Shown one piece after another: positions 9,829 through 27,324 of a stretch of DNA of 56,917 nt; position 1 is the stretch's first letter, and every line of letters starts with the position of its first letter. This DNA is from Carboxylicivirga caseinilyticus (lineage in GTDB: Bacteria > Bacteroidota > Bacteroidia > Bacteroidales > Marinilabiliaceae): NCBI GenBank assembly GCA_025499705.1, contig JAFMVE010000040.1, forward strand, positions 1 to 56,917. The letters run 5' to 3'. Below the pieces are notes generated by a model. It was not told the origin of the DNA and made no database searches. It saw only the letters and a list, made by a program, of their open reading frames with translations. The position numbers and the translations under genes were made by a program.

Positions 9829-10485
9829 TTATATCATTTCAAGAGTTGCCTTTACAACATTTTCGGCTCCTTCGGCAATTTGAATAATGTTAGCATCAAG
9901 CATATAGCATGGTGTTGTTGCAATTTTATTAACAGTGTCAATAACAACTTCTCCATGGTTAGTTGGTTTGTGTATGGCTCCCATTTTTTCTATTGCATCA
10001 GCAGTTCCTTTATCTTCGCCAATTGTTACTTCAATTTTTCCTAATGCTTTGGCAACTACGGCAGGTGCAATACATAAGGCACCAATAGGTTTTTTTGCAG
10101 CATGAGTTTCCTTGATGACTCTCATTGTTTCTTCTTCAACACTACTTTCAGCTCCTTCAAAAGCAAAGGTGCTTAAGTTTTTAGCTGCTCCAAACCCTCC
10201 TGGCATTAGTATGGCATCAAAATCTTCAGCTTTATAGGAATCTAGAGGTTGAATAGCGCCTCTTGCTATTCTGGCTGCCTCAATCATTACATTGCGTGTC
10301 TCATTCATTTCGTCACCAGTAATATGATTGACCACGTGGTGCTGTTGAATATCAGGAGCGAATATTGTGTATTCGGCTCCGTGTTTAGCAATGGCTAACA
10401 TGGTAAATACTGATTCGTGTATTTCGGCACCATCAAAAACACCGCAACCAGAAAGTATAACAGCTATTTTTTTTGTATCTGACAT
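9829..10485 (-). CDS. elbB: ElbB-like DJ-1/PfpI superfamily protein (glyoxalase-like)
   Basis: A 218-aa protein of the ElbB/ES1 group. It begins with KKIAVILSGCGVFDGAEIHE, the group signature. MPGGFGAAKNL forms the oxyanion region, and GALCIAPAVVAKAL contains the nucleophilic-elbow Cys. E. coli ElbB has weak glyoxalase activity and was linked genetically to isoprenoid synthesis; the physiological role is unsettled. It is convergent with glnN and divergent from the ThpR gene, with a 75-nt intergenic region. Confidence 0.93.
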   Translation of the reverse strand: MSDTKKIAVILSGCGVFDGAEIHESVFTMLAIAKHGAEYTIFAPDIQQHHVVNHITGDEMNETRNVMIEAARIARGAIQPLDSYKAEDFDAILMPGGFGAAKNLSTFAFEGAESSVEEETMRVIKETHAAKKPIGALCIAPAVVAKALGKIEVTIGEDKGTADAIEKMGAIHKPTNHGEVVIDTVNKIATTPCYMLDANIIQIAEGAENVVKATLEMI

Positions 10486-10560
10486 GTTTTGTATTTTTAG
10501 TATTTGATATAAAATTACAATTTTTTGTTTCTAAGATCGCATAAAATACAAACCTGTTCA

Positions 10561-11142
10561 ATGAAAAGTAAAGATGATAATGATCGTAGAATATTTATAG
10601 GGGTACCTGTTCTTTTAGAACCTGATTTCATTAAAGACTTTTCTATTCTTAAAAACGACCTGAGAAAAAACAAAATATCATGGGTTAAAAACCATTTAAT
10701 GCACATCACAATTCGTTTTATTGGTGATATATCGCAAGATAAAGTGATGAAGTTAAAAGATGATTTTGTTCGATTTACTATTGATGACAAATTTGATTTA
10801 AATACAGGAGGAATTGGCGTTTTTGAATCGAACAGAATTCCAAAAGTTATCTATGTGAATGTCATTTATCATGCACCTTGGATCAAACTAAATTCAGAAG
10901 TGAATAAAATGCTTGAAAAGTATAATATTGCTTCTTCCGATAAGCAATTTACTCCTCATCTAACTTTAGGAAGAGTTAGGTTAATAAAGGATAGTAGGTC
11001 ATTTCAATTAATCAAAAACAAGTTTCAACCCGGATTTAAGTTGAAGCAGAAAGATCTTAGACTTTGTTTGTATCAAAGTATACTTACAAATGATGGACCT
11101 GTTTACGAGATATTGAAATCGGTACCGTTAATTAATCTTTAA
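10561..11142 (+). CDS. thpR: RNA 2',3'-cyclic phosphodiesterase (LigT/ThpR)
   Basis: A 2H-phosphoesterase of 193 aa. The two catalytic HxTx motifs are HITI (in LMHITIRFIGDI) and HLTL (in TPHLTLGRVR), about 80 residues apart as usual. The N-terminus RRIFIGVPV is typical of LigT. The enzyme opens 2',3'-cyclic phosphates on RNA ends and may act in RNA repair or decay. I use ATG 10561; an in-frame TTG at 10525 would add 12 unconserved residues. The gene overlaps the convergent pseudo-amylase gene by 11 bp at the 3' end. Confidence 0.9.
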   Translation: MKSKDDNDRRIFIGVPVLLEPDFIKDFSILKNDLRKNKISWVKNHLMHITIRFIGDISQDKVMKLKDDFVRFTIDDKFDLNTGGIGVFESNRIPKVIYVNVIYHAPWIKLNSEVNKMLEKYNIASSDKQFTPHLTLGRVRLIKDSRSFQLIKNKFQPGFKLKQKDLRLCLYQSILTNDGPVYEILKSVPLINL

Positions 11143-12976
11143 GGTGTAAGATTAATATTGACTTTGGTTCGACCAGTAAGTTTGTAAAATCATCGAACGT
11201 TGATTCGCTCACAATATCATATCCTTTTGAATATTGACCAAGGATCTCGCTGTATTTTTTATTGTCGATTCTGATAGGTTCTTCCGTATTGTTGAAAAAA
11301 ACAAATGCTGCTATACTGTCCTTTTGTCTGTAATATGCATATGTTCCATCTTCAGGTGCAAATTGAATAAACTTACCAGAAAACAGTGATTTATTTTTAT
11401 TTCTCCAGTTGATTGCTCGTACGGCAAAATTGTAAAATTCATTTTCTTGCGGCGAGAAGCCTCTTTGTTCAATTCCGTTTTGACTATCTCCGTCCCAACC
11501 TCCCGGGAAATCTTTACGAACAAATCCTTTTCCTTTATTAATTGATCCGTCAAGGAGCCATTCTGTTCCATACAAAACACTGGGAATACCCCGGGTTGTT
11601 AGAACATAACCCAACATCATTATGGATTGGTCAAGTTCTTTATCTGCGTTGGAAAACAGGCGGGATAATTGATGATTATCTGCCATCACAATATTACCGA
11701 ATGGATTCAGGTATTTATGATCCTGAGTTAATATTGAATACATTTTCTGAAGACCCTCATTATTTTCATTGAAAACAGAAAATGCATCAGCAAGAGAATT
11801 GGCAACCGGATAATCTGTAATGTGTACCTGTTGTTTATTGAATCCTGAAGATAGGGCAATTTCCTGCCAAAAATTCAAATTTGTATCGGTAGGAGAGTGA
11901 TCAGAAATGATTGAGAGATTAGGATATTCATTATGAATAGCTGTAAACAATACCTTTAAAAAATCAGGTGTATTCCGATTGATTTCATAAATCTTTAATA
12001 CGTCGGCATTTGAAGTCTCAATCCACCAAATACAGTTTTGAATTAAAAGGTTTTGTAAATTCTTATCACTTTGATTCAAAACAGGCATGTTTAATTCCTG
12101 CCAGGTACCAAAGGCAATATTTTTATCGTATTCAGATGAGTAAGGATCTGTTGAAATTACCTGGTGACTGGATTCATACTTATATTCCGATTTATGAAAG
12201 AACGATTTATAGGGTGGTTTCTGACTCCAGGGATGATATTTACCTAACTGGTGCAACACCATCGTTTTAATTACCTTCAGATTATTCTGATGAAATTTCT
12301 GAATCAGGTTTATGTAATCTGAATTATTTCCTAATCGTTTATCAATATTGTAATTGTCTGTAATCCCATTTCTTTGGTATGACATCGTCATTAGGTTACT
12401 TTCAAAAACCGGAAGAAGGTCAACGCAAGTAAAACCCATATTTGAAATGTAATTAACTGCCTTTGAGATACCTGCTAAGTCACCGCCATGCACTCCCACT
12501 GGATTTAATCGATCGTTGACTTCAAAATACCCATTGATTTTATCATTTTTACTATCACCATTAACAAAACGATCGGGAACAATCTGGTATATGATATCCT
12601 CGCTGGTTAACGATTGTTGTGTATAAGGTAATCTGTCTGATAATTGAAATTCGAAAGATCCTGTATTTGCTTTTGAATCTCTGAATAGAATAGGAATTTT
12701 GCCCGGACTAGCCTGGTTTGATATTTCAATTTCAATAAACAGGTATTCGGTATTATCACCAGAATAAGTTCTGATTAATTTAACTCCGGGATAGTTAATA
12801 GTTGCAATTGCATTACCACTGAAAGGAGCATTTGCTATTAGGGTAACTGTATTATTTTTCATTCCTGTCCACCAGTTGGAAGGAGTGACTGTAACATCAA
12901 TATTTTTTCCAAAAACAAGGGTTGAAAAAAATATTGAAATTAGAGTTATGATGGTTTTTCTCTCTATTCGACTCAT
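11132..12976 (-). CDS. GH13 neopullulanase/SusA-like protein without catalytic residues (pseudoenzyme)
   Basis: This intact 614-aa frame has a signal peptide (MSRIERKTIITLISIFFSTL) and the architecture of Bacteroidota cyclomaltodextrinase/neopullulanases. The N-terminal domain carries NWWTGMK (35-41), the barrel has YQIVPDRF, HGGD and RGIPSVLYGTE, and the family loop GFVRKDFPGGWDGD and the C-terminal domain are present. Yet the four GH13 motifs are degenerate. Region I Asp/Asn/His are Thr238/His242/Gln243. Region II Arg and the nucleophile Asp are Lys328 and Tyr330. The acid/base Glu is Asp359. Region IV Asp of NHD is Gln436. Hydrolysis is therefore not expected; a periplasmic glycan-binding or regulatory role is possible (inference). 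ATG 12976 is chosen over 13072 because it puts the signal peptide first. A terminator-like palindrome separates it from malP. Confidence 0.88.
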   Translation of the reverse strand: MSRIERKTIITLISIFFSTLVFGKNIDVTVTPSNWWTGMKNNTVTLIANAPFSGNAIATINYPGVKLIRTYSGDNTEYLFIEIEISNQASPGKIPILFRDSKANTGSFEFQLSDRLPYTQQSLTSEDIIYQIVPDRFVNGDSKNDKINGYFEVNDRLNPVGVHGGDLAGISKAVNYISNMGFTCVDLLPVFESNLMTMSYQRNGITDNYNIDKRLGNNSDYINLIQKFHQNNLKVIKTMVLHQLGKYHPWSQKPPYKSFFHKSEYKYESSHQVISTDPYSSEYDKNIAFGTWQELNMPVLNQSDKNLQNLLIQNCIWWIETSNADVLKIYEINRNTPDFLKVLFTAIHNEYPNLSIISDHSPTDTNLNFWQEIALSSGFNKQQVHITDYPVANSLADAFSVFNENNEGLQKMYSILTQDHKYLNPFGNIVMADNHQLSRLFSNADKELDQSIMMLGYVLTTRGIPSVLYGTEWLLDGSINKGKGFVRKDFPGGWDGDSQNGIEQRGFSPQENEFYNFAVRAINWRNKNKSLFSGKFIQFAPEDGTYAYYRQKDSIAAFVFFNNTEEPIRIDNKKYSEILGQYSKGYDIVSESTFDDFTNLLVEPKSILILHLKD

Positions 12977-13058
12977 GGTTAAAATAGGTTGAAGCACTTT
13001 TTCAATATAATCATTATGAGTGAAAAAGTAAATGATATTCCCCGGTGCAATATTAATA

Positions 13059-13086
13059 AAAAAAGGAGTCAATTGACTCCTTTTTT
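13059..13086 (-). terminator. Perfect palindrome/terminator between malP and the pseudo-amylase
   Basis: GGAGTCAATTGACTCC (13065-13080) is flanked by A6 and T6 and gives a perfect 28-bp palindrome. Read on the minus strand, it lies 57 nt after the maltose phosphorylase stop and about 80 nt before the next start. It probably ends or attenuates the MFS-pgmB-malP transcript. Confidence 0.8.
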
Positions 13087-13142
13087 CTCGAATTGCGTTG
13101 AATTTATGACGCTTTGATACTATTATTCATTAATAAGATGCT

Positions 13143-15455
13143 TTATCCTACATTTATTTCAACAGTTTGCTGAGGCTCAACTTTTATTAATTGATTGTAC
13201 AAATACATTTCAACAGGATTGTTTGAATGGGATGCTACAGCAACCTTTTCTTTGGAAACAATTACTTCCAGGTCATTATTCATGAAGGTAATGCGGAAAG
13301 CATATTTTTTCCATTGACCAGGTATTACCGGATTAAGATAAAGTTTACCATCATAAACTCTTTTGCCACCAAAACCTTCAACAACCGACATCCAGGTCCC
13401 GGCCATGGATGTTATGTGCAGGCCTTCATGTGCTTCGTGATTGTAATCGTCAATATCCAGGCGCGAAGTGCGTAAATACATTTCATATGCCTTATCGATC
13501 ATGCCAATTTTTGCTGCCAGAATAGAGTGAACACAAGGCGACAGAGATGATTCATGAACCGTCCTTGGTTCGTAAAATTCGAAATTCCTTTTAATGGTTT
13601 CCAAATCAAACTGTTCTTCAAGTACATAAATACCCTGAAGTGTGTCAGCCTGTTTGATATAACAACTACGAAGAATTCTGTCCCACGACCAGTGTTGGTT
13701 GATTGGGCGTTGTTTTGGATCCAGATCTTTCACAAGGATATGCTCCTTATCCATGTATCCGTCCTGCTGCATGAAAACATTTAATTCTTCATTGAAAGGG
13801 AAATACATTTTGTCAACTATATCTTTCCACTTTGCAGTTTCTTCTTCTGTTTTGAACTTTGTTTTGTCAACAATTTGGTTAAAAGCATCAATATTATTCT
13901 TCTTAACAATTTCAATGGCTTCTGAAGTATACTTCATACACCAGGTTGCCATTTTATTGGTGTACCAGTTGTTATTGATATTGTTTTCGTATTCGTTGGG
14001 TCCGGTAACTCCAAGCATTACATACTTTTTCTTTTCACCCGACCAGTTAACTCGCTGACTCCAGAATCGTGATATACCAATCAATACTTCCAGCCCGTAC
14101 TCTTCAAGATATTTGAAATCGTTGGTGTGACGAATGTAGTTGTGAATTGCAAAAGCAATGGCTCCATTTCGGTGAATTTCTTCAAAAGTAATCTCCCATT
14201 CATTATGGCACTCTTCTCCATTCATGGTTACCATCGGATAAAGAGCGGCACCATCTTTAAAACCAAGCTTTCCAGCATTTTCAATGGCTTTGTCTAGCTG
14301 CTTATAACGGTAAATAAGTAGATTACGTGTTACGTTTGAAGGTGCTGTTGAAACAAAGAAAGGAATGCAATAAGCTTCTGTATCCCAATAGGTGCTACCT
14401 CCGTATTTTTCTCCTGTAAATCCTTTCGGACCAACATTTAATCGTTCGTCTTCGCCTGTATAAGTTTGATTTAGATGGAAAATGTTGAAACGAATACCTT
14501 GTTGAGCTGCAATATCACCTTCTATTTTGATGTCGCTATGAATCCATTTCTGTTTCCATTCATTTTTATGAGCCTCAAATAATTTATCAAATCCTTTATC
14601 AAATCCAGCCTTGGTAGATTTTTTTGTGGCAACCAGAATATCGTTTTTACTGTAATTTAACGAGCTGGTTACTCCAGCGATTTTCTCAATTGTAAATTGC
14701 TCACCTTCTTTAATTACTTTTTCAAAACGGTTTCCTACCCAGGCTTCTTTTTTTAGAATTTCGGGTTTGATACTGATTTCTACTCCCTGAATGAAGGTTT
14801 TAACCATCATGCCAAATCCAGCCCTAAAACCCAGCTTTTTTGTTTCAGTCACCAGGTAAGCTTCGCCCGGATGTGCTTCCATTTCTAGTAGATTCCAGAA
14901 TTTTTCATCGTAATTGGAATCTTCGTTTTCTACATCTCCATCAAGATATGGAGTGAATGATATTTTACCTTCAAAATTAAGAGGAGTAACCGAATAGCGA
15001 ATGGCACCAACTTCTGTATCGGCCATACTAAGAAAACGTTTAGCTACCACAGCAACTTTTTTGCCATCATCCATTATGGCTGTGAACTCTCTTAAAAGGT
15101 AACCTTCCTGCATATTCAGAACTCTTCTGAAATTTTCTGTTTTACAGGTGTATAAATCCAGAAAGTGGCCATCAATCTGAACGTCAATACCAATCCAGTT
15201 TGGACTATTTAATACCTTGGCAAAATACTCAGGGTATCCGTTCTTCCACCAACCAACACGAGTTTTATCAGGGTAATAAATGCCAGCCACATAGCTGCCT
15301 TGTAATGTGGGGCCGGTATAGGTTTCTTCAAAATTAGCTCTTTGTCCCATCTTTCCATTGCCAAGACTGAAGATACTTTCTGATGATCTGTGATGTTCAG
15401 GTTTAAAACCCTCTTCTATAATGTTCCACTCATCGTGAATTAAATATTCTATCAT
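13143..15455 (-). CDS. malP: Maltose phosphorylase, GH65
   Basis: A 770-aa inverting GH65 phosphorylase: maltose plus phosphate gives glucose and beta-glucose-1-phosphate. The N-terminal domain begins MIEYLIHDEWNIIEEGFKPE, with SIFSLGNGKMGQRANFEE typical of the family. The barrel holds GGSTYWDTEAYCIPFF, MVTMNGEECHNEWEITFEEI and GVTGPNEYEN; Glu488 in the last corresponds to the catalytic acid of the Lactobacillus enzyme. The C-terminal jelly roll follows (HEAHEGLHITSMAGTW). It is cytoplasmic, without a signal peptide. The beta-phosphoglucomutase gene 68 nt upstream in the same operon consumes its product, which supports the maltose assignment over trehalose or kojibiose. Confidence 0.93.
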   Translation of the reverse strand: MIEYLIHDEWNIIEEGFKPEHHRSSESIFSLGNGKMGQRANFEETYTGPTLQGSYVAGIYYPDKTRVGWWKNGYPEYFAKVLNSPNWIGIDVQIDGHFLDLYTCKTENFRRVLNMQEGYLLREFTAIMDDGKKVAVVAKRFLSMADTEVGAIRYSVTPLNFEGKISFTPYLDGDVENEDSNYDEKFWNLLEMEAHPGEAYLVTETKKLGFRAGFGMMVKTFIQGVEISIKPEILKKEAWVGNRFEKVIKEGEQFTIEKIAGVTSSLNYSKNDILVATKKSTKAGFDKGFDKLFEAHKNEWKQKWIHSDIKIEGDIAAQQGIRFNIFHLNQTYTGEDERLNVGPKGFTGEKYGGSTYWDTEAYCIPFFVSTAPSNVTRNLLIYRYKQLDKAIENAGKLGFKDGAALYPMVTMNGEECHNEWEITFEEIHRNGAIAFAIHNYIRHTNDFKYLEEYGLEVLIGISRFWSQRVNWSGEKKKYVMLGVTGPNEYENNINNNWYTNKMATWCMKYTSEAIEIVKKNNIDAFNQIVDKTKFKTEEETAKWKDIVDKMYFPFNEELNVFMQQDGYMDKEHILVKDLDPKQRPINQHWSWDRILRSCYIKQADTLQGIYVLEEQFDLETIKRNFEFYEPRTVHESSLSPCVHSILAAKIGMIDKAYEMYLRTSRLDIDDYNHEAHEGLHITSMAGTWMSVVEGFGGKRVYDGKLYLNPVIPGQWKKYAFRITFMNNDLEVIVSKEKVAVASHSNNPVEMYLYNQLIKVEPQQTVEINVG

Positions 15456-15523: not shown

Positions 15524-16180
15524 TTAATTTTCGAGGCTCAGTAATTTATTATAATCCATTTGATGTAATCCGTCAATTACAATGTCAGCTTTACCTAATA
15601 CATCAGTTGAACCAATTCCTACGCACTTCATTTTACCTGCTTTTGCAGCTTCAACACCAGCTTCAGCATCCTCAAAAACAACACATTCTTCTGGCTTAAC
15701 ATTTAGTTCTTCAGCTCCTTTTAAGAATACTTCTGGATCTGGTTTGGCTTGTGATACTTTTGTGCCATCGATGATAGCTTCAAACAAATAGGTGAGTTCC
15801 AGTCGATCCAGAATAGTCATTGCATTCTTACTGGCTGAACCTAAGGCTATTTTTATACCTTTTGTTTTTAATTCTTCCAGAAATGATTTGGCTCCGGGAA
15901 GGATTTCATCTGGTTGCATTTTTAAAATGAAGGTTCGGTAGTTTTCATTTTTTTTGTCGGCAAAGCGAATCTTTTCTTCTTCAGAAAGAGTTACACCTCC
16001 AATTTCTAATAATATCTCAAGAGAAGTCATCCGACTAACTCCTTTTAATCTTTCATTGTCTTCTTCAGTAAAGTCAAATCCAAGTTCCTTAGCAAGTTCA
16101 CGCCAGGCAATATAATGATACTTGGCTGTGTCCACAATTACACCGTCTAAGTCAAATAGACAAGCTTTTATCTTTCCCAT
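15524..16180 (-). CDS. pgmB: Beta-phosphoglucomutase
   Basis: A HAD-superfamily mutase of 218 aa that converts beta-glucose-1-phosphate into glucose-6-phosphate. Motif I is FDLDGVIVDT (nucleophile Asp10, acid/base Asp12), followed by the beta-PGM-specific cap sequence KYHYIAWRELAKELGF and ERLKGVSRM. Motif II Ser lies in ALGSASKNA, Lys in SQAKPDPEVF and motif III in VVFEDAEAGVEAA. It lies between the MFS transporter (14 nt) and malP (68 nt) and completes the phosphorolytic maltose pathway. Confidence 0.95.
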   Translation of the reverse strand: MGKIKACLFDLDGVIVDTAKYHYIAWRELAKELGFDFTEEDNERLKGVSRMTSLEILLEIGGVTLSEEEKIRFADKKNENYRTFILKMQPDEILPGAKSFLEELKTKGIKIALGSASKNAMTILDRLELTYLFEAIIDGTKVSQAKPDPEVFLKGAEELNVKPEECVVFEDAEAGVEAAKAGKMKCVGIGSTDVLGKADIVIDGLHQMDYNKLLSLEN

Positions 16181-16194
16181 AATTTCGTTTTGAT

Positions 16195-17595
16195 TTATGA
16201 CTGCAACTGATTATTCGTTTTTACAAAGTTTACGGAGATAGCACCAAGTATCATACTGATCCCTGCTATTACTATCATTGAGATGGCTTCACCATCGAAC
16301 CAATATTTAATGATTGGTCCGGCTATCAATCCGCTTATAATCTGTGGACCGGCAATGGTGAAATTAAAAATACCCATAAAAACACCCATTTTATCGGCAG
16401 GTATAGAGTCCGATAAAATAGCATACGGCATTGCCAGAATAGCGGCCCAGGCAATACCAATTCCTACCATTGGGAGCAACCACATTACGGCACTTGATGG
16501 AACATCTACTTGAGTAAATAATAAGTTTAAGTGAACTAAATCTCCTCCTTTTAAAAAGAATGTTGAGATATAGGCAATTCCACCAATAAGTAATGCAAAA
16601 CCGTATATTGTCTTTCTGCCAAATTTATTGGCAAGGTTTGACATTTGAGTTGAAAAAATGGCTGCAAAGAGACTATAGCCGGCAAATAAAATACCTACCC
16701 AATCTCCCGCATCCTGAGCTCCTTTGGTAGCACTCTCACCAATTGCTTCACCCCAAACATGCTGAGATACTGCCGGCGTTGTATACACCCACATAATGTA
16801 AAGTGCAAACCAGGAGAAGAACTGAACAACTGCCAGTTGAATCATTGTTTTAGGAGTTATTTTCAACAACCTAAAAAATCCAACAAAGCCTTTGTACTGC
16901 GGATCTGTTTCATTTGAATTATCCAGCCCTTTATATTCTGCATATTCTTCAGGAGGATATTCTTTTGTCTTTATAACTGTCCATATTACTGAAAGAAGCA
17001 AAACACTTCCTCCAATGTAAAAGGACCAAATTACAGAAGGTGCAACAGTTCCAGGGGCAGAAGTATTGGCAATGTTTAGACCATTGGTTAAAATAAAAGG
17101 AAGAATGGATCCCAATACAGCACCGGCATTTATCAAAAAGCTTTGAGTTGAATAACCCAGGTTTCTTTGTTCTGATGGAGTCATGTCAGCCACTAAAGCA
17201 CGGAAGGGTTGCATCGTAATATTGAATGATCCATCCATTAGAGCAAACATTAGCAAACCAAATAATAAGACTGGCATAAAGGCTACAACTGCTGATGCAT
17301 TGGGCATCAAAAACATTGAGACTGCCGCCACAATTGCACCCCCTAAAATATAAGGGCCACGTCTTCCAAAACGGTTCCATGTTCTGTCGCTGGCTGAACC
17401 AACAATTGGTTGAACAACCAAACCCATTAATGGGGCAGCTATCCAGAATAAAGGTAAAGAATGTAGGTCTGCTCCTAAATTTGAAAGAATTCGACTAACA
17501 TTGGCACTTTGAAGTGCAAATCCCATTTGGATTCCCAGGAACCCAAAGCTCACATTCCAAATCTGCCAGAATGATAGTTTTGGTAATTTCTTCAT
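16195..17595 (-). CDS. MFS maltose/sugar transporter (SLC45-like)
   Basis: A 466-aa inner-membrane carrier with about 12 TM segments. The start MKKLPKLSFWQIWNVSFGFL and the loop 2-3 motif SDRTWNRFGRRGPYILGG resemble SLC45/sucrose-symporter-type MFS proteins frequently found in Bacteroidota maltose loci. It probably imports maltose or short maltodextrins from the periplasm with protons (inference from context). It is the first gene of the minus-strand operon with pgmB and malP, with a long leader from the presumed -7 box at 17841-17848. Confidence 0.88.
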   Translation of the reverse strand: MKKLPKLSFWQIWNVSFGFLGIQMGFALQSANVSRILSNLGADLHSLPLFWIAAPLMGLVVQPIVGSASDRTWNRFGRRGPYILGGAIVAAVSMFLMPNASAVVAFMPVLLFGLLMFALMDGSFNITMQPFRALVADMTPSEQRNLGYSTQSFLINAGAVLGSILPFILTNGLNIANTSAPGTVAPSVIWSFYIGGSVLLLSVIWTVIKTKEYPPEEYAEYKGLDNSNETDPQYKGFVGFFRLLKITPKTMIQLAVVQFFSWFALYIMWVYTTPAVSQHVWGEAIGESATKGAQDAGDWVGILFAGYSLFAAIFSTQMSNLANKFGRKTIYGFALLIGGIAYISTFFLKGGDLVHLNLLFTQVDVPSSAVMWLLPMVGIGIAWAAILAMPYAILSDSIPADKMGVFMGIFNFTIAGPQIISGLIAGPIIKYWFDGEAISMIVIAGISMILGAISVNFVKTNNQLQS

Positions 17596-18154: not shown

Positions 18155-19183
18155 TTAGATTGTTTTTCCTAGTTGAGAGGATGTTCTTTCTACTAGTTCA
18201 GGTGTAAATATTTTGGTTTCAAACTCACTTTCAATGGCTGTTTCTTCGATATGGCCAATCAACAGGTTCATGGCAGCCTGACCGATAACATATCCTTTTT
18301 GTTCTACAGTAGTTAAAGGTGGATAAGCAATATCGGCAATAGGTCCGTCCCCAAATCCTACAACAGCAATGTCTTTAGGTACATTGTATCCATTCCGTTG
18401 CAGTACCTGCATGGCAGCAATGGCAGTACTGTCATTTACAGCAAATATTCCATCAATGTCACTGGCAAGACTAATAATTTCATCTTCCTTTGCAAATACA
18501 GATTCCCTGGTGTCACACTTTACTACGAGCTGATCATTGCATTGAAGCTGATGCTCTTTTAATGCGCTACAATAGCCCTCTTTTCGGTTCTTACCAATTA
18601 ATAAATGTTGCGGAGCAGATAGGTGCATTATTTTTTTACATCCTTTACTAATAAGGTGCTTAGTAGCTATGCGGGCACCTTCAAAATCATCAGCAATCAC
18701 TCTGTCTGTTGAGATGGCTTCGCAAATGCGGTCGAAAAAAACGATCGGGATTCCATTGTCTCTTACATTTTGAAAATGAGAGAATTCATGAGTGTTTTTG
18801 CTCATTGATACTAATATGCCATCTACCCGGTTGTCAATTAATGCCTGTAAATCAATTACCTCCCTTTGATAATTTTCGTTGGTTTGGCAAATGATGGCAT
18901 TATAACCTTTACTATAAGCAATGTCCTCGATACCACTAATCACTGTTGAAAAGAAGTGGTGCACTATTTCAGGTATCACAATACCAATAGTATTGGTTTT
19001 GCTACTTCTTAAACTTAATGCCAGGGCGTTAGGGCGATAATTTACTTTCTCGGCAAATGTCTGAACCAGTTGTTTTGTTTTTGGACTAATATCTGGATGA
19101 TCTTTTAATGCCCTGGAAACAGTTGATGGGGAAATCCCAAGAACTCTTGCAATATCTTTAATGGTTATCGGATGTGATTTCAT
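18155..19183 (-). CDS. LacI family transcriptional regulator of the maltodextrin locus
   Basis: A 342-aa LacI/GalR protein. The N-terminal HTH is ITIKDIARVLGISPSTVSRA followed by the hinge YRPNALALSLRSSKTNTIGI (about residues 6-60). The periplasmic-binding-protein-like sensor domain includes DGILVSMSKN, PIVFFDRI, GIFAVNDSTAIAAMQVL and the C-terminal FTPELVERTSS. It sits between the two divergent sugar operons and has matching GCAAnCGnTTGC sites on both sides, so it is their likely regulator. The effector is probably maltose or a maltodextrin (inference). Operators placed far upstream of the -7 boxes favour activation. An inverted repeat TTAAGGA-gta-TCCTTAA (19201-19217) lies just upstream of its start. 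Confidence 0.92.
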   Translation of the reverse strand: MKSHPITIKDIARVLGISPSTVSRALKDHPDISPKTKQLVQTFAEKVNYRPNALALSLRSSKTNTIGIVIPEIVHHFFSTVISGIEDIAYSKGYNAIICQTNENYQREVIDLQALIDNRVDGILVSMSKNTHEFSHFQNVRDNGIPIVFFDRICEAISTDRVIADDFEGARIATKHLISKGCKKIMHLSAPQHLLIGKNRKEGYCSALKEHQLQCNDQLVVKCDTRESVFAKEDEIISLASDIDGIFAVNDSTAIAAMQVLQRNGYNVPKDIAVVGFGDGPIADIAYPPLTTVEQKGYVIGQAAMNLLIGHIEETAIESEFETKIFTPELVERTSSQLGKTI

Positions 19184-19654: not shown

Positions 19655-19714
19655 ACCGAAATCCTTTAAAGCGGATATCAAATGTTTATTAATAATCAAG
19701 AAAATCTATGTTTT

Positions 19715-22654
19715 ATGAAAAAACAGTCTAATTTGTTTAAGTTACTGTTTCTTTTTCTGGCATTATTTAGTTTTCTGAATATAAATGCACAGGAAATGAC
19801 TGTTACAGGTGTTGTAACAGATGCAAGTGATGGTATGCCTTTACCTGGTGTTACTGTAGCAGTAAAAGGTACCACAACCGGAACAATTACTACTCCGGAT
19901 GGAGCATATACATTGAAAGTCAGCAAAGGACAAACTCTTGTTTTCTCATTTATTGGATATAAAAATGTTGAAACAATTATTGAAAGTCAGTCTCAGATTA
20001 ATATTGCTTTAGAAGAAGATGTTATTGGGATGGATGAAGTGGTAGTAATTGGTTATGGAACTGTAAAAAAAGATGATGCTACAGGTTCTGTTGTTGCCAT
20101 TAGCTCAAAGGATTTTAATAAAGGTAATATCACTTCTCCACAAGATCTGTTAGTTGGTAAAGCTTCTGGTGTTTCAATTACTTCAAGTGGAGGTGCTCCT
20201 GGAAGTGGATCTACGATTCGAATCAGGGGAGGTTCTTCATTGAATGCTTCCAATGATCCATTGATAATTATCGATGGTGTACCCATTTCAAATGATAATG
20301 TAAGTGGAAGTTCTAATATTTTATCATTCATCAACCCAAATGATATTGAAACCTTTAACGTATTAAAAGATGCTTCTGCAACAGCAATTTATGGTTCCAG
20401 GGCATCAAATGGTGTAATTATCATTACTACCAAACAAGGAAAAAAAGGACAGAATTTAAAATTCTCATACAGTGGTAATGTAGCAGTATCAACACCTATA
20501 AATTATATAGATGTTTATTCTGGAGATGAATTCAGACAAATTGCATGGGATAAAAGAGAATTGTTTGATGAAGAGGTATATAACCTTTTAGGATCTGCTA
20601 ATACAGACTGGCAAAAAGAAATTTTCAGAACAGCTATTTCTACAGATCATAATGTAAGTGCATCGGGAGCCTTTAAAAATCTTCCTTATCGTGTGTCTAT
20701 TGGTTATACAGACCAACAAGGTATTCTAGAGAATACAGATATGCAAAGATTTACCGGATCATTAAACCTGAATCCCTCCTTCTTTAATAATTCTCTAAAA
20801 TTAAATGCTAATGCAAAAATTATGAGCACTAAGCATAATTTTGGTGACGAAGGTGCTATTGGTTCAGCTATTAATATGGATCCGACTCAATCAATTAAAG
20901 ATGGTAATGCCGATACTGATGGATATTTTCAATGGCCTACATATGGAGCTAATTTAGGTACTCCAAACCCTGTTGAACAGGCAATGGCAGTTGACAATAA
21001 ATCAGATATCTTACGTTTTGTTGGTAACGTTCAGTTTACATACGAATTACCATTTTTATCAGGTTTAAAAGCTAATTTAAATTTAGCAACTGATTATGCA
21101 GATGGTACAGGACATAATAACAGACCTGTAACTTCACCATCGACATTAACAACGCCATTTACTGGAAAATTAAATACTTATAATAGTACAGTAAAGAATA
21201 ATCTTTTAGATTTTTATTTAGGCTATAATAAGATTCTTAATGAAAATCACAGATTGGATGCGACTGCAGGTTATTCTTGGCAACATTTCGAAAGAGAAGG
21301 AGATAGTTATACTGAAGGTATTGCTGATAATGTGGCACCTGTTACGGATTCTTACATAACAGAAAATTATCTTGTTTCTTTCTTTGGTCGTGCTAACTAT
21401 ACTTTAAAAGAGAGATATTTATTGACAGGAACAGTTCGTTATGATGGTTCTTCTCGTTTTGCAAATAATCCATGGGGCTTGTTCCCATCAGCAGCATTTG
21501 CATGGAAAATTAAGGAGGAGTCATTCTTGCAGGATGTTGATTTTATTTCAGATATGAAACTTCGTCTGGGCTGGGGGGTTACTGGTCAACAAGATATTGG
21601 AAGCGATTATCCGGCGCAAGCTCTATATAGAGAAGCAAGAGAAGGTGCATATTATATGATTAATGGACAATGGTTGCCTACGTTACGTCCAGACTCATAT
21701 GATCCGGATATTAAGTGGGAAGAGACAACAACTCAGAATATTGCTTTGGATTTTGGTTTCATGAATAATAGGCTTAGAGGTTCTGTTGATTTGTACAAAC
21801 GTGTTACTGAAGATTTGTTAAATGAAGTAACCATTCCTAGTGGTAGTAACTTCTCAAATACATTGCTAACAAATGTTGGTAGTTTAGAAAACCGAGGAGT
21901 AGAAGTTTCTTTGGATTGGGTTGCTATTTCAACTCCGGATATGTCATTGAATATTGGAGCTAATTTCACTTATAATAAAAACGAAATTACCAAGTTACTT
22001 TTAACTGATGATCCTGATTATATTGGAATCCTTTATGGAGATGCCTTTACAGGACAGAAACAAGTAACAAGAGTGGGAGATGCTGCATATTCTTATTTTG
22101 TAAATAAGCAAGTATACGACACCAATGGTAATCCAATTGAAGGTATGTATGTAGATATATCAGGTAATGGAGGAACTGTTAACGGTGATAATGAAGACAA
22201 GTATTTATATCATAATCCAGCTCCTGATTATTTATTAGGATTCTCATTCCGTTTCAACTATAAAGACTTTGATTTATCGGCATCAACAAGAGCTAATATT
22301 GGCAATTACGTTTATAACCAGGTTGCTGCCGGAGCATCATATGATCAAATGCAACAAATTGGTTATTGGAAAAATATGCCAAAATATCTAAGTGAAACTC
22401 AGTTTGTAAAACGACAGTTTACCAGTGATTATTTTGTTGAGAATGCTTCATTCTTTAAGGTTGATAATATTAGTGCGGGTTATAATTTTAAAGCTTTACA
22501 AGATAAACTTGATTTAAGATTAAGTTTTACGGTTCAAAACCTCTTGACGATTACAAATTATTCCGGACTTGATCCTGAAGTAAATGGCGGTATAGATAAC
22601 AATTTCTATCCAAGACCTAGAACTTTCACTTTAGGGTTAAATATGAACTTCTAA
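19715..22654 (+). CDS. susC: SusC/RagA family TonB-dependent outer-membrane transporter
   Basis: About 979 aa from ATG 19715, which places the signal peptide (MKKQSNLFKLLFLFLALFSF, then NINAQ) at the very start; the longer form from 19682 would add 11 residues. After cleavage comes a carboxypeptidase-D-like domain (VTGVVTDASDGMPLPGVTVA). The TonB box/plug region follows (MDEVVVIGYGTVKKDDATGS; IRIRGGSSLNASNDPLIIID), then the 22-strand barrel ending in TFTLGLNMNF with terminal Phe for BAM insertion. It is the channel for maltodextrins delivered by SusD, powered by TonB. It is the first gene of the plus-strand operon, with SusD 19 nt downstream. Confidence 0.96.
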   Translation: MKKQSNLFKLLFLFLALFSFLNINAQEMTVTGVVTDASDGMPLPGVTVAVKGTTTGTITTPDGAYTLKVSKGQTLVFSFIGYKNVETIIESQSQINIALEEDVIGMDEVVVIGYGTVKKDDATGSVVAISSKDFNKGNITSPQDLLVGKASGVSITSSGGAPGSGSTIRIRGGSSLNASNDPLIIIDGVPISNDNVSGSSNILSFINPNDIETFNVLKDASATAIYGSRASNGVIIITTKQGKKGQNLKFSYSGNVAVSTPINYIDVYSGDEFRQIAWDKRELFDEEVYNLLGSANTDWQKEIFRTAISTDHNVSASGAFKNLPYRVSIGYTDQQGILENTDMQRFTGSLNLNPSFFNNSLKLNANAKIMSTKHNFGDEGAIGSAINMDPTQSIKDGNADTDGYFQWPTYGANLGTPNPVEQAMAVDNKSDILRFVGNVQFTYELPFLSGLKANLNLATDYADGTGHNNRPVTSPSTLTTPFTGKLNTYNSTVKNNLLDFYLGYNKILNENHRLDATAGYSWQHFEREGDSYTEGIADNVAPVTDSYITENYLVSFFGRANYTLKERYLLTGTVRYDGSSRFANNPWGLFPSAAFAWKIKEESFLQDVDFISDMKLRLGWGVTGQQDIGSDYPAQALYREAREGAYYMINGQWLPTLRPDSYDPDIKWEETTTQNIALDFGFMNNRLRGSVDLYKRVTEDLLNEVTIPSGSNFSNTLLTNVGSLENRGVEVSLDWVAISTPDMSLNIGANFTYNKNEITKLLLTDDPDYIGILYGDAFTGQKQVTRVGDAAYSYFVNKQVYDTNGNPIEGMYVDISGNGGTVNGDNEDKYLYHNPAPDYLLGFSFRFNYKDFDLSASTRANIGNYVYNQVAAGASYDQMQQIGYWKNMPKYLSETQFVKRQFTSDYFVENASFFKVDNISAGYNFKALQDKLDLRLSFTVQNLLTITNYSGLDPEVNGGIDNNFYPRPRTFTLGLNMNF

Positions 22655-22673
22655 TAGATAAATTTAGGTAGAT

Positions 22674-24296
22674 ATGAAAAAATATATAATATCAAGCATT
22701 TTACTTTCAGTATTGTTAATTACGTCATGTGTTAATGATCTGGATGTTAAGCCGAAAGATGAAAATGTTATTCTTTCTGGTAATTTAGGAGATGATCCTT
22801 TGTATATGCAGCAAGCCTTAGCCAAAGTATACGCAAGTTTTAACCTGGCTGGTCAAGGAGGAAGTGGAGACTTTGGTGCAGACATTTCAGCATCTGATGA
22901 TAATTTCTTTACAACAATGAGAGCATTATGGAATTTGCAGGAAATTACAACAGATGAAGCAATTTGTGCCTGGGGTGATGTTGGTATTGCAGATTTAAAT
23001 ACACAAACATGGAGTGCTTCCAATCCGTTTTTAACAGCTCTGTATCAAAGATTAAGTTTAAGTATAACTTATGCCAATGATTTTATTATTCAGGCAGGTA
23101 AAACTGATGTGGAAAATAAGGATCAATACATTGCTGAAGCTCGATTTCTAAGGGCAATGGCCTATTATTGGTTGATGGATCTTTTTGGAAATCCTCCTTT
23201 CACAACTGAAGCTGATGGAGTAGGTAAATTTTATCCTCAGCAAATAAAAAGAGCTGATTTATTTAATTATATAGTTACTGAATTAAAGGAGATTGAGCCT
23301 GATTTAGCTGAACCAGGAACAGTTTATCCTCAAGCAGATAAAGCTGCTGCATGGATGCTTTTGGCACGTACATATTTAAACGCAGAAGTCTTCACCGGGA
23401 CTGCCAAATGGGATAGTTGTAAAATTTACACAACTAAGGTTATTGATAGTAATGTTTATGATTTGGCTGATGACTATCGTCAGAATTTTAGTGCAGATAA
23501 TGATTTTCCACGTAACCCTGAAATGATTTTTGCCTGGGCAGTTGACGGTGTTAATGCTCAAGGATATGTTGGTACTACATTCTTAATTGAATCAAGTAGT
23601 GATGCAGTTTATATCCGTGCAGAAGATTATCATGGTCTTACTGAAAATACTAACTGGAATGGTAATAGATCAAGAAAAGATTTCATGAATCTTTTAGTTG
23701 ATACAATTGCAACTTATGGAAATGTAGCTATTCCAGCTGATGATGCAGAATTTAGTCAGGCAGCTGATGGAAGAGTTTATTTAAAACAAAAAAGAGCTAT
23801 AAATATTCCTTCACCTTCTGCAAGTGGCGATTATGGTATTGGTGTTTATAAATTCACGGCTACTAACCATGATGGAACACAGGCAGATAACTACCATCCT
23901 GCATATGCATCAACAGATTTCCCTGTTTTCAGATTGGCAGATGCTTATTTGATGAGAGCTGAATCTAATCATAATTTGGGTGAGGATGGTTTGGCAGCAA
24001 CAGATATTAATGTTGTAAGAGAAAGAGCATATGGTGATGAATCTGGTAATATCTCAGCTTCAGAAGTTACAGATAGATTCATTCTTGATGAAAGAGGAAG
24101 AGAATTCTATTATGAAGCTCAGAGAAGAACAGACCTTGTTCGATTTGGACAATTTACAAACGGAGACTATTTGTGGCAGTGGAAAGGTAATTCTTACAAT
24201 GGGGCAATTGTGGACTCATATAGAGATATCTTCCCAATTCCAGCTGAAGAAACAGCTGCGAATCCAAATATTGATCAAAATGATGGTTACAACTAA
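22674..24296 (+). CDS. susD: SusD/RagB family starch-binding lipoprotein
   Basis: A 540-aa outer-membrane lipoprotein. The lipobox LLITSC gives Cys19, followed by the family's conserved beginning. SusD signatures are AEARFLRAMAYYWLMDLFGN (TPR-like helix), ADKAAAWMLLARTYLNAEVF, and near the C-terminus FPVFRLADAYLMRAESNHNL and ILDERGREFYYEAQRRTDLV with the final DIFPIPAEE. It forms the hinged lid over SusC and captures the sugar. The context of two amylases and SusE/F indicates maltodextrin as the ligand. Confidence 0.96.
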   Translation: MKKYIISSILLSVLLITSCVNDLDVKPKDENVILSGNLGDDPLYMQQALAKVYASFNLAGQGGSGDFGADISASDDNFFTTMRALWNLQEITTDEAICAWGDVGIADLNTQTWSASNPFLTALYQRLSLSITYANDFIIQAGKTDVENKDQYIAEARFLRAMAYYWLMDLFGNPPFTTEADGVGKFYPQQIKRADLFNYIVTELKEIEPDLAEPGTVYPQADKAAAWMLLARTYLNAEVFTGTAKWDSCKIYTTKVIDSNVYDLADDYRQNFSADNDFPRNPEMIFAWAVDGVNAQGYVGTTFLIESSSDAVYIRAEDYHGLTENTNWNGNRSRKDFMNLLVDTIATYGNVAIPADDAEFSQAADGRVYLKQKRAINIPSPSASGDYGIGVYKFTATNHDGTQADNYHPAYASTDFPVFRLADAYLMRAESNHNLGEDGLAATDINVVRERAYGDESGNISASEVTDRFILDERGREFYYEAQRRTDLVRFGQFTNGDYLWQWKGNSYNGAIVDSYRDIFPIPAEETAANPNIDQNDGYN

Positions 24297-24307
24297 AATC
24301 TTGAAAA

Positions 24308-25348
24308 ATGAATAAATCAATTATATTTTTATTATTAGGCTTGTTTACCTTCTTTGTTAGTTGCGAGAAGGATGGAGATAAGGTTGTTATACTTGAGTCT
24401 CCTGTTCCGCCGGCATTAACAAGTATGCCTGATTTGAGCCTTTCCCGTGATAAGGGAGGAGATATTTTAAAATTTGCTGCAACACCTGTAGATCCTGGTT
24501 TTGTTGCTTCTGCTAACTATTATTTAGAAGCAGCAGTGGCTGGAACTGGCTTTGCTGAAATCATTTCTATTTATTCAGGAACCAGTGTTGATGATATTAC
24601 AATTTCTGTTAGTGAATTAAATACAATATTATTAAAGCATTTTCCTGAGGACCAGACTTCATCTGTAGATTTTAGATTAAGAAGTCAATTGGTTGTTGAT
24701 GCAGGCACTGGAGCTCCTGGTACCGGAACTGATCCTTTCGAATATATTTCAGAAACTGTAACAGAAGATGTTAGCATATTTGGGTTTATGCGACTTGATT
24801 TTATTGATTCAGGTATGGATCAAAAAATCACTTCCCCATTAAGCAATGGAGTCTATACCGGATTTGCAAAATTATCTACTGATAATGCATTTAAATTATT
24901 TGATCCAGAAACAAGCATTACATACGGAGGAAGTGCTGGTACATTGGTAGAAGACGGAAATGGCATTGTAGTAGATGAAACTGGTTGGTATAATTTTACA
25001 GCTGATATTGTAGGAATGACTTATAATCCAGAACCTTATTTCATAGGTATAATTGGCTCGGCTACTCCTACCGGTTGGGATTCTGATACTGATATGGATT
25101 ATGATCCTGCTAAAGGGTATTGGTACATTAATATTGACCTTATTGGAGGTGAGTTTATTAAGTTTCGTATGAATGATGGTTGGTCATGGAATATGGGACT
25201 GGCAGAAGGTGTAACCGGTGGTTTATCAGGAGCACTGCAACAAGGAGGTGTTGGAAACGATATCCCTGTTCCTGAAACTGGCAACTATACTGTAATCTTT
25301 ACGATATTAAGTGATGATGCGGGTACCTTTGAATTAATTAAAAACTAA
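24308..25348 (+). CDS. susE: SusE-like starch-binding outer-membrane lipoprotein
   Basis: A 346-aa lipoprotein (lipobox TFFVSC, Cys19). The N-terminal part (VPPALTSMPDLSLSRDKGGD) is the SusE-type Ig-like domain. The C-terminal part contains a starch-binding module with the repeat GIIGSATPTGWDSDTDMDYD, then WYINIDLIGGEFIKFRMNDGWSWNMG; the Trp residues are likely sugar-stacking. The same module occurs twice in the next gene. It starts 11 nt after susD and helps hold starch chains at the cell surface. Confidence 0.9.
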   Translation: MNKSIIFLLLGLFTFFVSCEKDGDKVVILESPVPPALTSMPDLSLSRDKGGDILKFAATPVDPGFVASANYYLEAAVAGTGFAEIISIYSGTSVDDITISVSELNTILLKHFPEDQTSSVDFRLRSQLVVDAGTGAPGTGTDPFEYISETVTEDVSIFGFMRLDFIDSGMDQKITSPLSNGVYTGFAKLSTDNAFKLFDPETSITYGGSAGTLVEDGNGIVVDETGWYNFTADIVGMTYNPEPYFIGIIGSATPTGWDSDTDMDYDPAKGYWYINIDLIGGEFIKFRMNDGWSWNMGLAEGVTGGLSGALQQGGVGNDIPVPETGNYTVIFTILSDDAGTFELIKN

Positions 25349-25356
25349 ATCGTAGT

Positions 25357-25381
25357 GCTGCCTATCTTATTAGGCAGCTTT
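25357..25381 (+). terminator. Hairpin between susE and the susF-like gene (partial terminator)
   Basis: GCTGCCTA pairs with TAGGCAGC around a 6-nt loop, followed by only three T. It is probably a processing or attenuation element that lowers downstream expression, not a full stop. Confidence 0.5.
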
Positions 25382-25394
25382 AAAACCGATTATT

Positions 25395-27239
25395 ATGAAA
25401 AGAAAATCTTTAAATATACTAGCTGTATTAATCTCTTTTTCACTGGCTTTTGTTGCTTGTGAAAAAGATGACCAGGTAAAGCTTGATGCCCAGATGGAAT
25501 CTTGGAAAATTGATGGTATTACATCAACATCTGCTGAATTAAGTGGTATGGTTGTTGCTCAAGGTGATGGTTTTACTGAATTTGGTGTTTGTTGGAATAC
25601 TTCTGAAAATCCTACAATAGATAATTCAAGTCAGGAAGCAGATGAAGTAGATGGAGCTGTTTACTGGGTAACTGTAACAGGTTTAGATCATTTAACCAAA
25701 TATTATTACAAGGCTTATGTGGTTCAGAGCGACGGTTCTGTTTTGTATGGTGAGCAAAAATCATTTACCACTTTGGCAAATATAGCAACAGTAACATTGA
25801 GCGATGAAGCAAATCTTACTGATAGAACTGTTGACCTAACAGGAAATGTAACTTATGATGGTAAAGCTGAAGTTACAGCTAAAGGTTTCTGTTGGTCAAC
25901 CGAAGCTAACCCAACAGTAGCTAGTGATACTGTTCTAGTTGGAGCTGGTACAGGAGAATTCTACTACAGTATTATAGATTTAATGCCAAGTACTACCTAC
26001 TATGTTAAATCATATGCAATAAACAGTGTTGGTGTAGCTTATAGTAGTCAAATCAGTTTTACTACATCTGTCGGTGTTCCGGTTGTTGAAACGAACGATG
26101 TTTCAAATGTGACAAAAACAACAGCATCAGTAGCCGGTGAAGTTATTCATAATGGAGGAAGTGATATTTCTGAGAGAGGTTTTGTATATGGTTTAACTGA
26201 AAATCCAACAGTGGCAGACACTAAGTTGGTTGATGCAGAAGTGACTGTAAGTACAATGTCTGTCGATATTGATGGACTTGAGCCTGGTGTAACCTATCAT
26301 GTTAGGGCTTATGCTATTAATAGTACAGGAACTGCTTATGGTGATAATGTTGAGTTTACAACTGTACCAGATATTATTACTTGGTACCTTCCAGGAAGCT
26401 ATGTTACTGCCAGTTATCCTGTTGGTGGTTATGACAATTGGTCACCAGAGAGTTCTCCGTACGTGCAGAATACATTATCAGTTGGTGATAAGTTAGAAGG
26501 TTATGTATATCTAGGAGTAGATAACAGCGAATGGAAATTTGCAACAGACAATACATGGTCAACCAACTATGGTGATGATGGTGCTGATGGAACACTTGAA
26601 GCAGGTGGAGCAAATATTGTTTCTGCTATGGGTTATTACAAAATAAATGTTGACTTATCTGTCTCACCTTACACATATACTGCTGTTAAAACTGATTGGG
26701 GCGTAATTGGTGATGCAACACCTGGTGAATGGGGAACAAGTACAGATCTTACTTATGATGCTGCTTCACAGACTTGGAGAGGTGTGGTTCATTTGAAAGC
26801 TGGAGGATTTAAATTCCGTGCCAATAATGCTTGGGATTATAATTATGGTAGTAGTGACGGTGTTAATCTTGTATCAGGTGGCGATAATATTACCAATGAC
26901 GTAGAAGATGATTATGATTTCACTCTTGACCTAAGTAATCCAAATGAATATACCTATACCGCTTACCGCTGGGGTATTATTGGTGATGCTACTCCTGGAG
27001 GATGGGATACAGATACAAATATGAGCTGGGATTCAACCAATAAAGTATTTACTGTAACAGCTGATTTATTGGGAGGAAAGCAATTTAAGTTTAGAGCTAA
27101 TGACGGTTGGACTGTTAATTTAGGTGGTTCATTAACTGCTCTTGAGCAAGACGGAAGTAATATTGACATTGCTGAGGATGGTAACTATACTATCACTCTA
27201 AATACAATGACTAATGTTGCTACAGTTGTTAAAAACTAA
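25395..27239 (+). CDS. SusF-like surface lipoprotein with three FN3-like and three starch-binding modules
   Basis: A 614-aa lipoprotein (lipobox LAFVAC, Cys22). Residues about 35-127, 130-223 and 228-325 are three fibronectin-III-like repeats, each with a G-F/V-C/Y-W signature (FGVCWNTSENPTI; GFCWSTEANPTV; GFVYGLTENPTV) and ending in Y-Y-V-K/R-A/S-Y-A. Three SusE/F-type starch-binding modules follow (about 328-430, 435-520 and 522-614). The last two share GDATPGxW...KFRAN.A/GW with SusE. The FN3 array would act as a stalk that lifts the binding modules off the membrane (inference). Classical SusF has Ig-like domains instead. It lies 46 nt after susE. Confidence 0.88.
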   Translation: MKRKSLNILAVLISFSLAFVACEKDDQVKLDAQMESWKIDGITSTSAELSGMVVAQGDGFTEFGVCWNTSENPTIDNSSQEADEVDGAVYWVTVTGLDHLTKYYYKAYVVQSDGSVLYGEQKSFTTLANIATVTLSDEANLTDRTVDLTGNVTYDGKAEVTAKGFCWSTEANPTVASDTVLVGAGTGEFYYSIIDLMPSTTYYVKSYAINSVGVAYSSQISFTTSVGVPVVETNDVSNVTKTTASVAGEVIHNGGSDISERGFVYGLTENPTVADTKLVDAEVTVSTMSVDIDGLEPGVTYHVRAYAINSTGTAYGDNVEFTTVPDIITWYLPGSYVTASYPVGGYDNWSPESSPYVQNTLSVGDKLEGYVYLGVDNSEWKFATDNTWSTNYGDDGADGTLEAGGANIVSAMGYYKINVDLSVSPYTYTAVKTDWGVIGDATPGEWGTSTDLTYDAASQTWRGVVHLKAGGFKFRANNAWDYNYGSSDGVNLVSGGDNITNDVEDDYDFTLDLSNPNEYTYTAYRWGIIGDATPGGWDTDTNMSWDSTNKVFTVTADLLGGKQFKFRANDGWTVNLGGSLTALEQDGSNIDIAEDGNYTITLNTMTNVATVVKN

Positions 27240-27253
27240 ATAATACTTTTTAC

Positions 27254-27285
27254 AAGGTAGTCCCATCAAATGGGGCTGCCTTTTT
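27254..27285 (+). terminator. Terminator between the susF-like gene and the amylases
   Basis: AAGGTAGTCCCAT pairs fully with ATGGGGCTGCCTT (13 bp, two G-U pairs), loop CAA, followed by five T. Amylase expression beyond it depends on read-through or an unseen promoter. Confidence 0.75.
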
Positions 27286-27324
27286 GCTTTTTAAAGTGCC
27301 ATAGAACCTAGTAAAAGAACAGAC

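Follow-up and report, generated by a model that had tools for sequence, protein, structure and literature searches.

A candidate pseudoenzyme of GH13_46 descent in Carboxylicivirga caseinilyticus and related Bacteroidota

Background

Next to the maltose operon of Carboxylicivirga caseinilyticus (Bacteroidales, Marinilabiliaceae) lies a gene whose product resembles a GH13 enzyme over its full length, yet has no intact catalytic triad. The gene is part of a stretch of 56,917 nucleotides (assembly GCA_025499705.1, contig JAFMVE010000040.1, positions 1 to 56,917 of the forward strand), which was analysed as a whole and is called the window here. The question raised by this locus is what kind of protein has been kept: a remnant in decay, an altered enzyme, a sugar-binding protein or something else. 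We found 28 such proteins in the family, all of them degenerate, and lean somewhat towards the view that they are exported, soluble, non-catalytic descendants of subfamily GH13_46. In this reading they are kept as pseudoenzymes across the genera of the family and work by protein contact. Publications are cited by their PMC numbers.

Results and discussion

A full-length protein without the catalytic residues

The original prediction, made from the letters of the window, described an intact frame of 614 amino acids that had lost every catalytic residue. We confirmed the frame, on the minus strand, with an ATG at 12976, a TAA at its low end and no internal stops. The gene and its leader are located as follows.

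11132..12976, minus strand: GH13_46-type (cyclomaltodextrinase/SusA-like) degenerate pseudoenzyme, assigned from the intact frame, Pfam domains, alignment and codons
12905..12976, minus strand: hydrophobic, cysteine-free Sec-type leader, about residues 1-24, read from the sequence, its end placed by eye and not by a signal-peptide program

Three Pfam domains follow one another in the window protein: Cyc-maltodext_N (PF09087), Alpha-amylase (PF00128) and Cyc-maltodext_C (PF10438). The second exceeds its cut-off of 22 bits with a score of 79.3, which places the protein in the GH13 fold family, and the succession of domain N, TIM barrel and domain C is that of GH13_46 enzymes of the Flavobacterium type. 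None of the NCBIfam models for named enzymes reached its cut-off with this protein. The closest solved structures by sequence are 1h3g, the cyclomaltodextrinase of Flavobacterium sp. 92 (E-value 1.6e-97), SusA (9fyz) and 9dcq, whose title gives GH13_46. The first two enzymes are both assigned to this subfamily (PMC9781549). A predicted model, with 70 aligned relatives as input, reached a mean predicted local distance difference test score (pLDDT) of 94.6 and a predicted template modelling score (pTM) of 0.92. Foldseek matched it to 1h3g over the whole chain (template modelling scores 0.91/0.93, root mean square deviation 2.5, 597 columns), and the full-length fold is predicted to be intact.

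By contrast, the active site differs from that of the enzymes. At the nine positions 238, 242, 243, 328, 330, 359 and 434-436, GH13 enzymes have the string DNHRDENHD, whereas the window protein has THQKYDNHQ. In an alignment with 1h3g, these nine letters fall on the canonical GH13 positions. The codons are ACG (T238), CAC (H242), CAG (Q243), AAG (K328), TAT (Y330), GAT (D359) and AAT-CAT-CAA (N434-H435-Q436), and all codons cited in the original prediction, including those of Tyr330 and Gln436, agree with the bases. Motif IV retains its Asn and His, and at 359 Asp is a conservative substitute for Glu. The replacements, each read from the alignment and the codons, are listed here together with two in the surrounding pocket.

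12248..12265, minus strand: motif I, T238..H242-Q243 replacing D..N-H
12368..12376, minus strand: Q201-R202-N203 replacing H-G-Y
12419..12421, minus strand: D186 replacing Trp
11987..11995, minus strand: motif II, K328-I-Y330 replacing R-x-D
11900..11902, minus strand: motif III, D359 replacing the acid/base Glu
11669..11677, minus strand: motif IV, N-H-Q436 replacing N-H-D

Several features that define GH13_46 are absent. The triad of the window protein reads Y330, D359 and Q436, and Asp, Glu and Asp occur together in none of the 28 members. The MPDLN mark of conserved sequence region (CSR) V reads MPVLN; its Asp299 is present in at most one of the 28 members, compared to 187 of 188 other subfamily rows. 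The Glu that follows the proton donor in CSR-III is missing from the window protein (SDHS), although this is a weak mark, in that many intact rows also do without it (GETW, GEAW). The pair W317-W318, on the other hand, occurs in all 28 members. Judged by its sequence, the protein is of GH13_46 descent, yet it has neither the intact triad nor the MPDLN mark. With catalytic motifs lost, the frame conserved and the fold conserved as far as prediction goes, it qualifies as a candidate pseudoenzyme.

The pocket is dismantled throughout the group

The string DNHRDENHD is found in 0 of the 28 members and in 187 of the 188 other GH13_46 rows. These 188 comprise 128 rows of a first table (127 with the string) and 60 further rows from the order (60/60); they contain near-copies and form 184 groups at 99% identity. 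Their sole exception, L205 (G031:C3:14075-15880; labels of this kind are our own), reads DNQRDENHD, with an intact triad and Gln for the motif-I His at 243.

In every member, the Asp of motif I is replaced by T, S or N, its His by Q, K or E, and the Glu of motif III by D, A, S or T. Asp is the replacement at 359 in 22 members, and six rows have no D359. Other losses are less complete: the Arg of motif II is retained in seven members and the Asp of motif IV in four. At the nucleophile position, 330, 16 members have Glu and 10 have Asp; the window protein has Tyr and that of G047 has Cys. The latter protein, L201 (G047:C1:128585-130363), is the only member besides that of the window without an acid there. 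The claim that every catalytic residue is lost therefore holds for this genome but not for the group.

Tyr330 has a separate history. It occurs in the window genome only; the ten other Carboxylicivirga orthologues have GAT, GAC, GAA or GAG at this position, and GAT to TAT is a single base change. From these sequences, Tyr330 is a late, private change added to an older loss, although a sequencing error could be the source of this one residue. A place for Tyr330 in the ancestral loss can be rejected, because 26 of the 28 members have Asp or Glu there. Frameshifts or sequencing errors were likewise rejected as the source of the old losses, given open frames in 28/28 members.

The losses extend beyond the nine string positions. 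We identified 88 positions at which at least 95% of the 128 intact rows share one residue, and 23 of these, including most catalytic ones, are marked as lost in the members. Trp186 is present in 188/188 other rows and in no member, where it is Glu (21), Asp (6) or Asn (1). Gly202 has become Arg (19), His (6) or Lys (3), and is thus basic in all 28. His201 is kept in one member and Tyr203 in two; we take these residues to correspond to His80 and Tyr82 in Taka-amylase numbering, which contact glucose at subsite -1. R162, which like Trp186 presumably helps to contact this glucose, is kept in no member and is replaced by Ile or Val, and Phe293 is lost along with Asp299. Gln131, present in 28/28 members where 185/188 other rows have Leu, was rejected as a mark of the group because 1h3g also has Gln.

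Residues elsewhere are strictly conserved. All 28 members keep W35 and W36 (the Trp pair of domain N), D135-R136, N144, H163, G165, D166, D277, R439, E472, R525 and Y546. N139 and D145 are retained in 26 of them; together with N144 and D166 they presumably resemble the calcium site of related enzymes. Hydrophobic leaders were seen with a hydropathy window in 26/26 members checked. The simplest reading of this pattern, we infer, is that the scaffold was kept while the pocket was dismantled and refilled. A salt bridge between the acidic residue 186 and the basic residue 202 may now lie at the place formerly taken by sugar.

Distribution and single origin

Orthologues occur in 11 of 14 Carboxylicivirga genomes, that of the window included, and the ten others are 35-71% identical to the window protein. 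One carrier is Carboxylicivirga linearis, whose orthologue is on NZ_JAGUCO010000007.1, so that the host range includes at least one named strain, C. linearis FB218. Another 17 members (L106-L119, L121, L186 and L201) came from searching 71 family genomes with a profile. In total, the group is present in 28/71 genomes and 12 of the 21 genera sampled. We dropped the following before counting: L057 (its match contains three stops), L067, L070 and L071 (partial or not extracted), L123 (motifs identical to L122), L032-L034 (which repeat the loci L004, L007 and L006) and the weak matches L003 and L026-L031. Fragments in G021, G028, G042, G055 and G068 were left unclassified. At G021:C161:9561-11377 and G042:C37:109947-111717, GH13_46 matches occur in two adjacent pieces, perhaps reflecting frameshifts or assembly errors.

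Outside the family, no degenerate copy was found among the 87 loci inspected at the order level (27 + 60), all of which are intact; the underlying search covered 393 genomes, of which 207 matched at E <= 1e-100. Sampling beyond the order comprised only 42 loci outside the group, with 38 used. The record L076 is on a contig labelled Williamsia (Actinomycetota), but its GH13_46 gene groups with Sphingobacteriaceae and Bacteroidales, and the record is probably contaminated or mislabelled.

In an unrooted tree of 72 rows, a branch with a Shimodaira-Hasegawa-type approximate likelihood ratio (SH-aLRT) of 100 separates the 28 members from all other rows. The 26 members then known behaved likewise in an unrooted tree of 109 rows. 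When the three longest rows were left out (57 rows, unrooted), 23 members stayed together at 100/100. This result, and the presence of an ElbB-type neighbour in seven genera, make it unlikely that the single group is a long-branch artefact. The recurring neighbour argues for one origin independently of the tree. A recent tandem copy of the operonic enzyme does not appear in the tree. A common clade with five operonic enzymes of the family was not rejected by the approximately unbiased (AU) test (p-AU 0.309).

Purifying selection

The ratio of nonsynonymous to synonymous substitution rates (dN/dS) was counted by the Nei-Gojobori method. Six of 22 comparisons were saturated, namely four of the eight pseudoenzyme pairs and both gcvP pairs. 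In the four pseudoenzyme pairs that gave a ratio, it was 0.06-0.105, far below 1. For the two closest pairs (dS 0.28), the values are 0.100 (G006-G007) and 0.063 (G041-G040), compared to 0.050 and, at dS 0.73, 0.021 for the intact paralogue, and 0.030 for GH65 in G006-G007. The window gave 0.075 with C. linearis (G000-G002) and 0.105 with G013, both rough values near saturation (dS > 2). In the pair with C. linearis, ElbB has a ratio of 0.079, which is no lower than that of the pseudoenzyme. Purifying selection on the gene is clear and about 1.7-3x looser than that on the intact paralogue.

These results agree with the original prediction, which argued against random decay and for a non-enzymatic role. 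The latter is now very likely: the substitutions are mostly common to the relatives, with Tyr330 as the private one, and selection preserves the frames that carry them.

Gene neighbourhood

The genes around the pseudoenzyme in the window are as follows.

13143..15455, minus strand: GH65 (maltose phosphorylase-like), last gene of the maltose operon
15524..16180, minus strand: beta-phosphoglucomutase
16195..17595, minus strand: MFS sugar symporter
18155..19183, minus strand: LacI-type regulator
9829..10485, minus strand: ElbB-type glyoxalase, next to the pseudoenzyme or one gene away in seven genera
13058..13087, minus strand: terminator-like hairpin with a 13-pair stem and a T run, located between the end of GH65 and the start of the pseudoenzyme

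The GH65, beta-phosphoglucomutase and MFS genes adjoin the pseudoenzyme in 11/11 Carboxylicivirga carriers, and the LacI gene does so in the nine whose contig reaches that far. None of these 11 has an intact enzyme between GH65 and the pseudoenzyme. Ten of them have an intact enzyme elsewhere, in the company of other genes. In the window, 166 bases separate GH65 from the pseudoenzyme. The hairpin has a counterpart in all 11 genus carriers, where the stem letters have changed; ten stems are perfect, and that of G009, read by eye, has one G-T pair. A hairpin also immediately precedes the pseudoenzyme in G029, whereas there is none in G017. On this evidence, the gene looks like a transcription unit separate from the maltose operon. 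The original prediction had placed it in a maltose locus, which is accurate for its position next to GH65, but the hairpin suggests a unit of its own.

In the other 11 genera, nine neighbourhoods were readable, at about 10-20 kb each; g5 and g21 offered too little sequence, and G047 and G050 were left out. Maltose-operon genes are near the pseudoenzyme in two of the nine (G029 and G017), and no match to them was seen in the other seven. In those seven, the neighbours include gcvP, ElbB or, as annotated in G014, a tetratricopeptide repeat protein together with a prolyl oligopeptidase. The ElbB-type gene is adjacent or one gene off in 5/11 Carboxylicivirga carriers and in six other genera (G029, G014, G040/G041, G030, G049 and G017). 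The order in G029 is LacI, MFS, beta-phosphoglucomutase, GH65, intact enzyme, pseudoenzyme, LigT-like gene and ElbB.

The LigT-like gene (2H phosphoesterase) is present in the window at 10525-11142 on the plus strand. It runs towards the pseudoenzyme, and the last 11 bases of the two genes overlap. A LigT-like neighbour also occurs beside the pseudoenzyme in G029, G014 and G041.

Possible roles

In the reading that we favour, the former pocket would be filled by a polar network consisting of the acid at 186 (27/28), the base at 202 (28/28) and Lys or Arg at 328 (27/28), and the filled barrel would no longer admit glucan. The protein would act in the periplasm by touching another protein, for instance through domain N, and serve as a scaffold, stabiliser or regulator. 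Contacts of this kind have precedents among the active relatives. Domain N takes part in the oligomers of the Flavobacterium enzyme, which are loose dimers of tight dimers (PMC9781549), and SusA and BoSusA are dimers (PMC11633381). A more specific version, which we hold only tentatively, is that the group consists of plugged, non-catalytic GH13-fold adaptors or receptors, made from a periplasmic starch enzyme and with a non-carbohydrate partner, and would be a prokaryotic counterpart of the rBAT/4F2hc ectodomains across a family of environmental Bacteroidota.

Several observations weigh against a role by protein contact. That 26 members retain an acid as residue 330, the nucleophile position, goes beyond what a purely structural role calls for. 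Domain N, the proposed contact surface, is the least conserved domain: mean pairwise identity among members is 0.304 there, 0.333 in domain C and 0.410 in the barrel. The salt bridge between 186 and 202 is a proposal from sequence. Adjacency to the maltose operon has been held in every Carboxylicivirga carrier, and transcripts from GH65 could read through past the hairpin. The window region has five terminator-like sites where shuffled sequences have a mean of 5.5, so that a single match is weak on its own; the hairpin evidence is stronger than this number, because a counterpart with changed stem letters is present in all 11 carriers of the genus.

The same adjacency, shared by G029 and G017, would fit a periplasmic, lectin-like protein that binds alpha-glucan, holding maltodextrin in the cleft or in domain N to aid its uptake or sensing. 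The FPGGW loop is mostly retained (G492 in 26/28, W494 in 25/28), docking points to domain N as a possible cyclodextrin-binding site in the Flavobacterium enzyme (PMC9781549), and the inert SusA variant D331N keeps one of two acarbose sites (PMC11633381). However, H201, Y203, W186, R162, Phe293 and the Asp299 of MPDLN are lost, and a function in maltodextrin uptake is weakened by the hairpin before the gene and by the seven of nine other genera in which no maltose-operon neighbours were seen. We consider this explanation unlikely, although sugar might bind outside the old -1 site. Periplasmic maltodextrin binding, one of the roles originally proposed, has thus lost ground; the protein may still serve in signalling or as a scaffold.

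Contact with a partner raises the question of whether that partner is the intact GH13_46 enzyme of the same cell. This would resemble the plant protein ISA2, which presumably lacks the catalytic triad. An intact GH13_46 gene is present in 24/28 carrier genomes (a hand tally, fragments aside), and in G029 it is the neighbour of the pseudoenzyme. GH13_46 enzymes form dimers or dimers of dimers (PMC9781549, PMC11633381), and ISA1-ISA2 is a precedent for such pairing (PMC3787081). Nonetheless, no intact full-length GH13_46 match was found in the carriers G009 (100% complete), G030 (95), G026 (92) and G027 (86), and an intact enzyme also occurs in 30/43 genomes of the family without a pseudoenzyme (fragments aside), which is a weak association. 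Obligate pairing is disfavoured by these two results. Moreover, the intact copy in Carboxylicivirga groups with Lewinella and Chitinophagaceae, and not with the operonic enzymes of the family. A non-catalytic subunit of this type is therefore improbable.

About equally improbable is a re-purposed enzyme that has built a new active site from the remaining acids E/D186, E/D330 and D359. These acids are frequent (27/28, 26/28 and 22/28, respectively), and the GH13 enzyme BmaN1 is active with an aberrant triad (PMC5347038). BmaN1, however, lost only the transition-state Asp, and no set of acids is invariant in our group, given Tyr330 in the window, Cys330 in G047 and six rows without D359.

Finally, a decaying gene heading for loss might explain the further private loss of Tyr330 and a protein that has diverged 1.3-3.8x as much as the intact paralogue (five genome pairs compared for both), but we give it almost no credence in view of the selection described above and of 28 full-length members in 12 genera with no internal stops.

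Relation to known proteins

The window protein shares with 1h3g and SusA its full length, the order of its three domains, about 30% identity, a predicted fold with a template modelling score of about 0.9, an export leader, and the Trp pairs in domain N and barrel. It differs from them in having neither the triad, the Asp-Asn-His of motif I, further invariant pocket residues nor MPDLN. The study that defined GH13_46 took only sequences with an intact triad (criterion iii, section 2.1; PMC9781549). Because of this selection, such proteins fall outside its founding set, and this would explain why the group has escaped notice.

Pseudoenzymes of the GH13 type are already known, and the bacterial group appears to be a new variant. 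The rBAT/4F2hc (SLC3) ectodomains also combine a GH13 fold with a non-enzymatic, stabilising role (PMC8537225), but these vertebrate proteins are membrane-anchored and covalently bound to a transporter, and are kin to the group only at the level of GH13. ISA2 resembles it as a non-catalytic GH13 partner retained beside an active homologue (PMC3787081). Unlike ISA2, which is a stability-dependent subunit of ISA1, the pseudoenzyme is found in 4/28 carriers without an intact partner from the subfamily. The BmaN1 alpha-amylases share a changed motif-IV Asp (PMC5347038), but they keep the Asp and Glu of the triad and are active, whereas our group has lost the Glu and motif I.

The GH13 pseudoenzymes that we found in print come from animals (rBAT, 4F2hc) and plants (ISA2). 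Among the matches listed in the open-licence literature, judged by titles and abstract openings and with subscription journals outside the scope, there was no account of such a bacterial group. With at least 28 diverged members sharply apart from their active relatives, the group offers a direct test of how a whole active site was lost and another role gained. It also bears on annotation: Pfam labels the window protein an amylase, and annotation by profiles would place it among the starch enzymes.

Other features of the window

A starch-type utilisation locus with SusC, SusD and SusE/F-like genes occupies 19682-31982 on the plus strand. It includes one GH13 gene with the amylase profile in two separate stretches, and another that has CBM48 together with a type IX sorting tail.

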